Shown here piece after piece: positions 12,185 through 17,413 of a stretch of 32,259 nt of DNA. Position 1 is the first letter of the stretch, and every line of letters begins with the position of its first letter. A program made the position numbers and the translations under genes. The notes beneath the pieces are model-generated. The model did no database searches, was not told the origin of the DNA, and saw only the letters and a list, made by a program, of their open reading frames with translations. Origin of the DNA: Balneolaceae bacterium (GTDB lineage: Bacteria > Bacteroidota > Rhodothermia > Balneolales > Balneolaceae); the NCBI GenBank assembly GCA_007123715.1, contig SKKO01000008.1, positions 1 through 32,259 on the forward strand. The letters run 5' to 3'.

Positions 12185-12293
12185 TGAAAAGTGGGGCTCA
12201 CAATAGCACAAGCGGCCATGTGCCAGCCTGATGGCACAAATACTCCGTTTACGCTATCTAAAGTTTTCAGCAGGCCAATTTTCACTTTTCACT
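12183..12293. repeat. Nested inverted repeats between gntR and helicase
   Basis: An outer 11-bp inverted repeat, AGTGAAAAGTG (12183-12193) and CACTTTTCACT (12283-12293), encloses an inner perfect 7-bp hairpin, TGTGCCA (12219-12225) and TGGCACA (12232-12238), with a 6-base loop. The left arm overlaps the end of the gntR gene. It could be the gntR terminator region, a small palindromic element, or chance pairing of the TTTTCAC heptamers on the right. Confidence 0.5.
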
Positions 12294-12313
12294 TTTGCCT
12301 TTTCACTTTTACA
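12279..12313. repeat. Degenerate TTTTCAC/TTTTGCC heptamer repeat
   Basis: Five consecutive 7-base units, TTTTCAC, TTTTCAC, TTTTGCC, TTTTCAC and TTTTACA, ending 10 bp before the helicase ATG at 12324. One unit is identical to the heptamer repeated before hemF when that array is read in the hemF sense, and the position relative to the start codon is the same. Confidence 0.75.
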
Positions 12314-14473: not shown

Positions 14474-15391
14474 TTACACCCAATCTCTCGGGTTTTGCAA
14501 TACCTCAACCATCTTTTCTTCTCCTGAACCTTTTTCTGGATTAAAATCATAGTCCCACCTTACCCGTGGCGGTAAACTCATAAGTATGGATTCAATCCGG
14601 CCATTGGTTTTCAAACCGAAAAGTGTTCCGCGGTCATGAATCAGGTTAAATTCAACATACCGGCCACGGCGAATTTCCTGCCAGTAACGCTGCTCATCAT
14701 TCCAGGGCTCATGGATCCGTTTTTTTACTACAGGAAGATATGCATCTAAAAAAACGTGTCCGGCATCTTCTGTAAAAGCATGCCAGTCTTCTATTTTTCT
14801 ATCATCAGTTTTCCGGAGGTAATCAAAAAAAAGACCGCCGATTCCCCGTGCTTCCCCCCTGTGGCTGTTGTAGAAATATTCATCACACTGCTTTTTGAAA
14901 TCCGGATAAAGATTATCTCCGTGTTTGTCACATACGTCTTTAAAAACACGGTGGAAGTGATGGGCATCTTCTTCCCGCAGATAATACGGAGTAAGATCGG
15001 CTCCGCCGCCAAACCAGGCATCAACAGGATTATCCATACCCTCGTGATTGTAGAGTTCAAAATATCGGAAATTGGCATGAACGGTGGGCACCATCGGGTT
15101 TTCAGGATGGACTACCAGCGAAATTCCTCCGGCCCAAAACCATCCCTTATCCACTTTAAAATGGGTTTTAATGGGATCGGGCAAAACACCGTGTACCGTT
15201 GAAATATTTACACCGCCTTTTTCAAAAACATCCCCCTTTTCAATCACCCGGGTACGCCCGCCTCCACCGCCATCACGGTTCCACTCATCTTCCCTGAATG
15301 TTGCTCTTCCATCGACATCCTCAAGGGCGGTACAGATTTCGTTTTGCAGATTATGGATGTATTGGGTGAATTCTTTTTTTATGTGTGTCAT
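14474..15391 (-). CDS. hemF: Oxygen-dependent coproporphyrinogen III oxidase
   Basis: 305 residues, normal length. Oxidatively decarboxylates coproporphyrinogen III to protoporphyrinogen IX using O2. Visible family motifs are the glycine-rich [10 protein letters not shown] (40-49), [29 protein letters not shown] with the conserved H105, and [13 protein letters not shown] (127-138). The oxygen-dependent form implies an aerobic heme route ending in protoporphyrin. It is downstream of hemE on the same strand but separated by a terminator and 185 bp containing a palindrome and a tandem heptamer array that ends 5 bp from its ATG, so hemF probably has its own promoter. No Shine-Dalgarno sequence is visible. 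Confidence 0.97.
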
Positions 15392-15396
15392 ATTTT

Positions 15397-15466
15397 AAAA
15401 GGCAAAAGGCAAAAGGCAAAAGGCAAAAGGCAAAAGGCAAAAGGCAAAAGGCAAAAGGCAAAAGGC
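15397..15466. repeat. Tandem heptamer array (AAAAGGC x10)
   Basis: Ten perfect, uninterrupted copies of AAAAGGC followed by one more AAAA. The array is 5 bp upstream of the hemF start codon; in the hemF transcript it reads as repeated GCCUUUU. Perfect identity of all copies indicates recent slippage or strong selection. Because it lies between any promoter and the start codon, changes in copy number would alter leader length by 7 bases per unit. Confidence 0.97.
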
Positions 15467-15521
15467 AAAATCATGGTGCAAACGTGTCGTTAGTGTGATT
15501 TTCTGAGCTGCGAGTTCTCCC

Positions 15522-15542
15522 GGAATCAACTTTGTTGATTCC
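15522..15542. repeat. 9-bp palindrome in the hemE-hemF gap
   Basis: Perfect inverted repeat GGAATCAAC, loop TTT, GTTGATTCC. There is no T-run on either side. It may be a regulator operator or a hairpin in the hemF leader. It resembles but does not match an FNR-type site, in which the half-sites have the opposite order. Confidence 0.6.
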
Positions 15543-15554
15543 TTCCAAAGGGTG

Positions 15555-15587
15555 AAAAAAAACAGGATTTGGTAATCTATTCCTGTT
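15555..15587 (-). terminator. Terminator overlapping the hemE stop codon
   Basis: On the minus strand AACAGGA (15587-15581) pairs with TCCTGTT (15567-15561) across a 13-base loop, followed immediately by an eight-T run (15562-15555). The upstream arm includes the last codons of hemE, so termination occurs within a few bases of the end of translation. It separates the heme operon from hemF. Confidence 0.8.
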
Positions 15588-16626
15588 TATAATTTTTTAT
15601 CGTATCAACAAATGCCCTGGCATGATCTACGGGTACGTGCGGCAGAATTCCATGGCCAAGATTGGCGATATACCTTCGTGTGCCAAACCGGTGGATCATT
15701 CTGCGGGTTTTTTGCTCAATTTCTTTAATCGGCGCAAGAAGATGAGACGGATCAAAATTTCCCTGGAGGGTAATGTTGCCTCCGGTTTTTTCACGGGCAA
15801 ATTCGGGTGAGATGGTCCAGTCGAGGCCGAGTGCCGCAGCACCGCTTTTGTAAGCCAGCCGTTCCAATGCATACCAAACCCCTTTTGCAAAGATGATCAT
15901 TGGAACCCCTTTTACTGAAGCTGAAATTTCCATAAGACATGGAAGTGCCCATTCATTAAAATCCTCGGGGCTTAGCAGGCCTGCCCATGAATCAAATAGC
16001 TGCACAGCCTGTGCCCCGGCATCTATCTGAGCATTTAAGTATGAGATGGTAGCGTTGGTCAGTTCACGCATTACGTGTCTGGAGGCCTCAGGATACTGGT
16101 ATAAAAAAGATTTGGCTTTATCGAAGGTTTTAGAGCCTTCTCCCTCAACCATGTAACAGAAGAGTGTCCAGGGTGCACCGGCAAATCCAATCAAAGGTAC
16201 CCTGCCGTTTAATTCCCGGCGGGTAAGGGTGATGGCGTCCATTACATAGTGCAATTTTTCCGGTATATTTTCCGCTAATACCGAAAAAGCATCATCTTCA
16301 GTTTGGATAGGATTCCCCATCACAGGCCCTTTGCCGGGTATCATCTGAACATCAATCCCGAGTGCCTGTGGTACTGTGAGGATATCGGAAAATATAATTG
16401 CGGCATCGGGCTCCAGTTCGTCAATCGGCTGAATAGTGATTTCACAGGCCAGTTCCGGTGTCTCCACCCGCTCAAAAAAACTGTATTTGTGACGCAGTTC
16501 CATATATTGCGGAAGATAACGGCCTGCCTGTCGCATCATCCATACGGGCGGGCGCTCCACTTCTTCTCCTTTTAAGGCGCGGAGAAACAGGTCGTTTTTA
16601 AGGGCAGGAAAATTGTGATTTGACAT
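15577..16626 (-). CDS. hemE: Uroporphyrinogen decarboxylase
   Basis: 349 residues. Removes four carboxyl groups from uroporphyrinogen III to give coproporphyrinogen III. Family motifs are PVWMMRQAGRYLP near the N-terminus (R32 and R36 contact substrate), AIIFSDILTVP with the catalytic aspartate, GFAGAPWTLFCYMVEG, and the C-terminal GHGILPHVPVDHA. The frame is open upstream to 16707, but that would overlap hemD; ATG 16626 begins 19 bp after the hemD stop and fits family length. It is the last gene of the hemH-A-C-D-E run and ends in a terminator. Confidence 0.97.
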   Translation of the reverse strand: MSNHNFPALKNDLFLRALKGEEVERPPVWMMRQAGRYLPQYMELRHKYSFFERVETPELACEITIQPIDELEPDAAIIFSDILTVPQALGIDVQMIPGKGPVMGNPIQTEDDAFSVLAENIPEKLHYVMDAITLTRRELNGRVPLIGFAGAPWTLFCYMVEGEGSKTFDKAKSFLYQYPEASRHVMRELTNATISYLNAQIDAGAQAVQLFDSWAGLLSPEDFNEWALPCLMEISASVKGVPMIIFAKGVWYALERLAYKSGAAALGLDWTISPEFAREKTGGNITLQGNFDPSHLLAPIKEIEQKTRRMIHRFGTRRYIANLGHGILPHVPVDHARAFVDTIKNYKQE

Positions 16627-16645
16627 TTTCGAGAGATTTAATTCT

Positions 16646-17413
16646 TTAAGCCGAAAGACCCCCTGATAAGGGGTTTTCAATACGGTGATATAAAACCTGA
16701 GCCACAAATTTCAAAAATGCAGTTGTATCCGGTTTTGGGGAAATATGTACATGTTTACCACTCTCAATGCTCAGTTCCTCTGCAGTAGTGTTGCCGATTG
16801 CAAATAGTTCGGCAGCCGGCATATTTTTAAATCCTCCACTGTTTCTGTATGCCTGAACTGCACTCGGGCTGTAAAACAGTATGGCGTCATAATGCCGATC
16901 CGGAATATTCATGGATTTAAGGATCGTTTCGTACACAACTACATCCCAGACATTGATTTCAGATTTTTCAAGATATTGCCTGAATTCATCCCGGCGTTTA
17001 TCGCCGCAAAAATGAAGCACGGTTGCATCACGCAGTTCGGGAGTATTCAAAAAATCATCTGTAATTTTCTTTGCCAACCCAACGCCATCTTCCTGTTCAG
17101 GAACAAGGGCTTCGATTCCTGTCCCTTCAAAAGCTTCGGCAGTTTTATCACCAACGGCATAAACAGGTACTTTTTTTACCGGTGCAGGTCCCGAGCTTAA
17201 GTACCGTTGAAAAGCGAAGACCCCGTTTTGGCTGGTAAAGGCCAGTACGGGATTTTTAATGGTTTTAAAGTGTGACTCTACAACAGACCAGTTGTCCCGG
17301 TACTTGATTTGGATAGCCGGTTCCATATCCACGTTAAAGGCAAGTGAACCGGCGAGTGAAAGTTGTGCATCCGTCAGATTACGTGTGACCAGTATGTTAA
17401 AAATTTTTTCCAA
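16646..17413 (-). CDS. hemD: Uroporphyrinogen-III synthase
   Basis: 255 residues. Cyclises hydroxymethylbilane with inversion of ring D to give uroporphyrinogen III. Sequence conservation in this family is low, so the call rests on the two-domain pattern (N-terminal ILVTR, a VYAVGDKTAEAFEG segment, then DAILFYSPSAVQAYRNSGG and ELFAIGNTTAEELS), all typical of HemD, and on its place between hemC and hemE. The gap to hemC is 18 bp, to hemE 19 bp. Start at ATG 17413. Confidence 0.93.
   Translation of the reverse strand: MEKIFNILVTRNLTDAQLSLAGSLAFNVDMEPAIQIKYRDNWSVVESHFKTIKNPVLAFTSQNGVFAFQRYLSSGPAPVKKVPVYAVGDKTAEAFEGTGIEALVPEQEDGVGLAKKITDDFLNTPELRDATVLHFCGDKRRDEFRQYLEKSEINVWDVVVYETILKSMNIPDRHYDAILFYSPSAVQAYRNSGGFKNMPAAELFAIGNTTAEELSIESGKHVHISPKPDTTAFLKFVAQVLYHRIENPLSGGLSA

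Follow-up and report, generated by a model that had tools for sequence, protein, structure and literature searches.

The heptanucleotide array before hemF in a Balneolaceae bacterium is one of many gene-edge heptamer arrays in its genus and probably a known type of mutable DNA

Results and Discussion

Sequence and comparative analysis of a 32,259 nt window (the whole stretch of DNA analyzed) revealed that the AAAAGGC array directly before hemF is one of many heptamer arrays at gene edges in the genus, taken as Rhodohalobacter, and therefore probably belongs to a known type of mutable DNA. The array, its class, the dominance of period 7, a rule of placement at genes, and the variation in unit and copy number among orthologous hemF leaders were directly observed. 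The explanation that we consider likely is a slippage-prone heptanucleotide simple sequence repeat (SSR) of known kind that possibly tunes hemF as a by-product. In this view, slipped-strand copying would have extended a short seed between hemE and hemF into an array, one of a class of AAAAGTG, AAAAGGC, AAAAGGG, and other units that accumulate at the gene edges of Rhodohalobacter and its relatives. Slippage is its likely cause and may be the source of ongoing length change. The effect on hemF would be at most modest and graded, exerted through the length of the leader or the spacing of the promoter, and would be a by-product and not an evolved switch.

The array and its genomic context

The features of the hemE-hemF region are as follows:
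14474..15391, minus strand: hemF, oxygen-dependent coproporphyrinogen III oxidase, 305 aa (NF003727, 413.6 bits; PF01218)
15397..15470, plus strand: (AAAAGGC)10.57 heptamer array (Tandem Repeats Finder, 100% match; sequence)
15467..15502, plus strand: imperfect inverted repeat adjoining the array, AAAATCATGGTGCAAACGTGTCGTTAGTGTGATTTT (sequence; one 83% match in congener G013, similar core in G007)
15516..15546, plus strand: spacer stretch with palindrome GGAATCAAC-TTT-GTTGATTCC (BLAST, dispersed in two congeners)
15560..15588, minus strand: terminator-like hairpin over the hemE end, with an 8-bp low-GC stem and a 13-nt loop, then a T run (leader fold)
15577..16707, minus strand: hemE, uroporphyrinogen decarboxylase, upstream neighbor of hemF (TIGR01464, 431 bits)

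hemF is the final gene of a minus-strand run hemH-hemA-hemC-hemD-hemE-hemF and is separated from hemE by a spacer of 185 nt. Its identity was given by profile matches to the NF003727 equivalog (413.6 bits) and PF01218 (436 bits), a named relative is Rhodohalobacter sulfatireducens (77%), and its annotated start is supported since relatives and congeners aligned from residue 1 or near it. hemE is also the immediate upstream neighbor of hemF in congeners with a measurable spacer, with gaps of 24-335 nt. A second, partial hemF C-terminal piece of 54 residues (70% identity) was identified in G007 (C235:48958-49119), approximately 3 kb from the complete hemF.

The ten perfect AAAAGGC heptamers at 15397-15466 described by the original prediction were confirmed, and the perfect period extends even to 15470 (10.57 units; sequence and Tandem Repeats Finder). 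The coordinates likewise bear out the location "against the start codon", as the array ends 5 nt from the hemF ATG (complement of 15389-15391), and the hemF sense strand reads it as (TTTTGCC)n. It was also correctly described as a non-triplet array that lies outside the coding sequence and could, through its length, alter the hemF leader; translation of the array as an in-frame N-terminal part of HemF was ruled out because a TAA directly precedes the ATG. The longest period-7 run of the window comprised 67 matches compared to 10 or fewer in 20 copies of the window generated by a first-order Markov model, such that the array, at 10.57 units, exceeds chance length as a long heptanucleotide SSR.

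A Shine-Dalgarno sequence is absent before hemF, as had been noted, but this is the norm here: one was present in only 8% of 490 sampled genes of the genus, and its rarity is the rule for Bacteroidetes (PMC6847099; PMC9976891). The hairpin after hemE, missed by a consensus terminator scan with a loop limit of 8 nt versus its 13-nt loop, resembles an intrinsic terminator and hemF may therefore have a separate promoter downstream of hemE. A sigma-70 scan of the hemF leader displayed one weak match only, inside the array, which is implausible as the hemF promoter as its -10 abuts the ATG. A search for the Bacteroidota -7 element gave two 5/6 matches at the upstream edge of the array, judged no better than AT-rich expectation, and folding of the hemF leader RNA was no better than that of shuffles (z = 0.03).

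Heptamer arrays in the genome and the genus

The source genome (G000) is a fragmented 3.9 Mb assembly of 390 contigs that was surveyed through sampled contigs and pattern searches. The family pattern search identified at least 25 separate AAAAGTG/AAAAGGC/AAAAGGG-family arrays, a count for which the reversed-unit control is invalid, since reversing GTGAAAA yields a rotation of AAAAGTG. A pure AAAAGGC array of at least three units occurred a single time. AAAAGGC triplets were present in 8/28 genomes of the genus, including the source, and in only 8/394 genomes of the phylum, all from the same family. The congener G003 held AAAAGGC arrays of up to 18 units in about a dozen places and 37 period-7 runs in 399 kb, denser than the source genome, with loci partly picked around arrays. 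Period 7 was the dominant short tandem period in the sampled sequence of G000, G003, and congeners, with the dominance weak in the nearly array-free G011 (one array in 400 kb); array abundance is thus strongly species-dependent within the genus. Among edges with a spacer of at least 40 nt, period-7 arrays were found at 9/713 starts compared to 0 to 3 for each of the other periods from 5 to 11. Heptamers are the most abundant long repeats in most genomes and polymerase slippage is their proposed cause (Mrazek, 2007, as relayed by PMC4679880 and PMC4692102).

The window itself contains a further member of the class:
12279..12310, plus strand: second, mixed heptamer array TTTTCAC/TTTTGCC, 4.6 units, approximately 15 nt before the likely ATG of a helicase gene (12325)

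The listed start of the helicase open reading frame (12231) would place this array inside the coding sequence and is probably too long.

Placement at gene edges

Arrays flank both starts and stops and lie beside unrelated genes. The purine strand points away from the gene in 36/43 arrays with a clear purine strand (p = 9e-6), a rule that the hemF array obeys. Degenerate doublets located up to 80 nt from an edge displayed the same orientation, with ratios of 71:4 in G000 and 93:4 in G003, which are non-independent counts from loci that were in part picked for holding arrays, though not for orientation. An edge rule of this kind has been published for the GGGAATC heptamers of Xanthomonas and the GGGGA(C/T)T heptamers of Nostoc in a study focused on G-quadruplexes (PMC4692102), and its orientation, in which the purine strand is antisense ahead of starts and sense beyond stops, was that of the 36/43 arrays. 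The AAAAGGC unit lacks the G-tracts of those heptamers, its sole G run being GG, and without a G3 run quadruplexes are an unlikely reason for placement here. The strict rule is a counterpoint to slippage, as slippage alone leaves it unexplained.

With the purine strand directed away from the gene at starts as well as stops, some spacers are bounded by inverted arrays. Examples among the G000 and G003 loci (L087-L146, L176-L195) are L091 2870-3106, L180 1332-1760, and L188 2975-3276.

hemF leaders across congeners

Comparison of the hemF leaders of one genome per species identified a period-7 array in 4/20 leaders of the genus while most had none, so no conserved function is apparent. The arrays were TTTTGCC x10.6 in the source genome, TTTTGCC x3.4 in G025, TTTTCAC x4.6 in G026, and degenerate in G022, and the G007 leader retained a short degenerate heptamer remnant. 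All five leaders fall within one 12-member clade of the hemF tree (support 87/93, under the starred level) and none among the other eight congeners (Fisher p = 0.055). Apart from the source genome, arrays were found in 3/19 hemF leaders, above the 9/713 rate at starts (binomial p = 0.0017), and the hemF site may therefore be held by something; common ancestry in the 12-member clade would also account for the excess. The same excess suggests an old array, altered in length and unit and often lost, a history that is in keeping with slippage and speaks against a conserved regulatory role. Slippage over evolutionary time is supported by unit sequence and number differing between species at the same site.

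The hemE-hemF spacers of G015, G005, and G011 (L012, L013, and L019) contained different filler with inverted-repeat parts, among them CCCCTCTTGAGAGGGG, seen in G015 and in G005, as well as a CAGGGGTGTGTT ... ACACACCC pair.

HemN, the oxygen-independent route, was detected in all 28 genus genomes searched, above the cut-off in 26 of them and at 566 bits in the source genome. hemF was not found in G004 (97% complete) and G020 (99% complete), both of which carry hemN. The presence of hemN throughout the genus and the missing hemF in two near-complete genomes indicate that hemF is replaceable in the genus, which makes its variation cheaper, yet also less important.

Alternative explanations

The original prediction placed hemF under possible stochastic control. 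As a contingency locus analogous to hmw1A/hmw2A, the array would, through the number of units, alter promoter spacing or leader length and vary hemF expression between cells. Repeat-based expression variation is indeed known elsewhere, the 7-bp repeats in the hmwA promoters of Haemophilus being a functional precedent in which more repeats accompany less mRNA (PMC2424069), and the hemF array is perfect, exceeds ten units, and lies directly before the start. The terminator-like hairpin after hemE would permit hemF its own promoter, and the array is bordered upstream by two weak -7-like sites. Against this, the scans yielded no strong promoter, most hemF orthologues have no array, similar arrays sit beside unrelated genes and after stop codons, and HemN provides a second route. 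Stochastic control was thus unsupported, the array being part of a genus-wide class at the starts and stops of unrelated genes, with no convincing promoter and with a missing Shine-Dalgarno sequence that is normal for these genomes; it is possible, without support specific to hemF, and we consider a contingency locus unlikely. A literature search identified no link between hemF and repeat-driven phase variation, its one match, in the part of the article available, dealing with Staphylococcus epidermidis small colony variants. A variant of switching was considered at the level of translation via a putative leader ORF:
15388..15474, minus strand: possible leader ORF of 28 codons running through the array, peptide end PFKI (translation; frame versus copy number)

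Its ATG at 15474 lies just upstream of the array, no stops occur within the array, and at ten units its TGA overlaps the hemF start as ATGA. As each unit gained or lost shifts the frame, the ORF end cycles with unit number modulo 3 between the hemF start, 3 nt before it, and 38 nt past it, and slippage could in principle switch translational coupling to hemF among three states. G025, a congener whose hemF leader has an array, lacks the ORF, and such coupling is very improbable.

Two further explanations concern the nature of the element itself. The array could form the end of a palindromic element dispersed among intergenic regions instead of a free-standing repeat, since by inspection roughly half of the listed G000 AAAAGTG arrays adjoin a AGCTGGAGCG...CAGTCCCG repeat, and the hemF spacer holds another palindrome that is dispersed in G005 and G015 (the GGAATCAAC-TTT-GTTGATTCC stretch with flank matched by BLAST at 90-96% in six places of G005, two of G015, and one of G016). 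The hemF spacer was however found only once in the source genome, the interior flank of its array had no match to a repeated element within the sampled portion of that genome, and array-bounded spacers have no middle part in common, making this origin slightly less probable than the contingency locus. The idea that a common mobile element surrounds the hemF array was rejected, the spacer being single-copy in the genome. The dispersed repeat adjoining many source-genome AAAAGTG arrays has the form AGCTGGAGCG..GCGACAGTCCCG..CGGGATGAAAA (L176, L177, L180, L183, L185, L186, L187, L190, and L194). Lower still is the probability that we assign to a protein-binding or RNA-level regulatory element (compare TAACTGA of the Beggiatoaceae), or a structural element with inverted arrays bounding the spacer. 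Its position at the ribosome-binding region, a genus-wide placement rule that has the look of selection, and inverted arrays at both edges of some spacers argue for it, but arrays also follow stops, units vary by species, most hemF leaders are empty, the leader RNA folds as its shuffles do, and GG runs render a stable G-quadruplex unlikely as judged from the sequence.

Comparison with known heptamer systems

The slippage-prone SSR reading is consistent with the long heptanucleotide SSRs of bacteria, which share with the present arrays period 7, long perfect arrays, a mostly intergenic location, and several units per genome (Mrazek et al., 2007, in the part conveyed by PMC4679880 and PMC4692102). 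Rhodohalobacter and the Balneolaceae were not the subject of PMC4679880 or PMC4692102, and the present units are AAAAGGC, AAAAGTG, and related heptamers. The Xanthomonas and Nostoc heptamers similarly lie near ORFs (within about 50 bp), antisense before starts and sense after stops, with unit-number variation between species and some paired inverted arrays; their units carry G3-G4 runs and fold into G-quadruplexes, whereas the Rhodohalobacter unit has GG only at the same placement (PMC4692102).

The Haemophilus influenzae hmw1A/hmw2A promoters also have a perfect heptamer array upstream of the start, in 9-28 copies, but encode surface adhesins with a measured effect on transcription (PMC2424069), while hemF codes for a housekeeping heme enzyme. 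In marine Beggiatoaceae, TAACTGA heptamers occur directly before Shine-Dalgarno-less starts with no common downstream function, as a single fixed unit mostly in few copies and mainly before starts, compared to several units at both gene ends here (PMC4679880). The hemF array is not of that type, its unit being AAAAGGC and related arrays occurring at both gene ends.

Biological significance

On its own, the hemF array is ordinary for the genus. The Rhodohalobacter heptamers share the edge rule of Xanthomonas and Nostoc though they are hardly able to form quadruplexes, and a shared rule without this ability points to a cause other than quadruplex folding. If hemF varied by slippage, oxygen-dependent heme synthesis would be under bet-hedging, and HemN in the same genome would make such variation tolerable.
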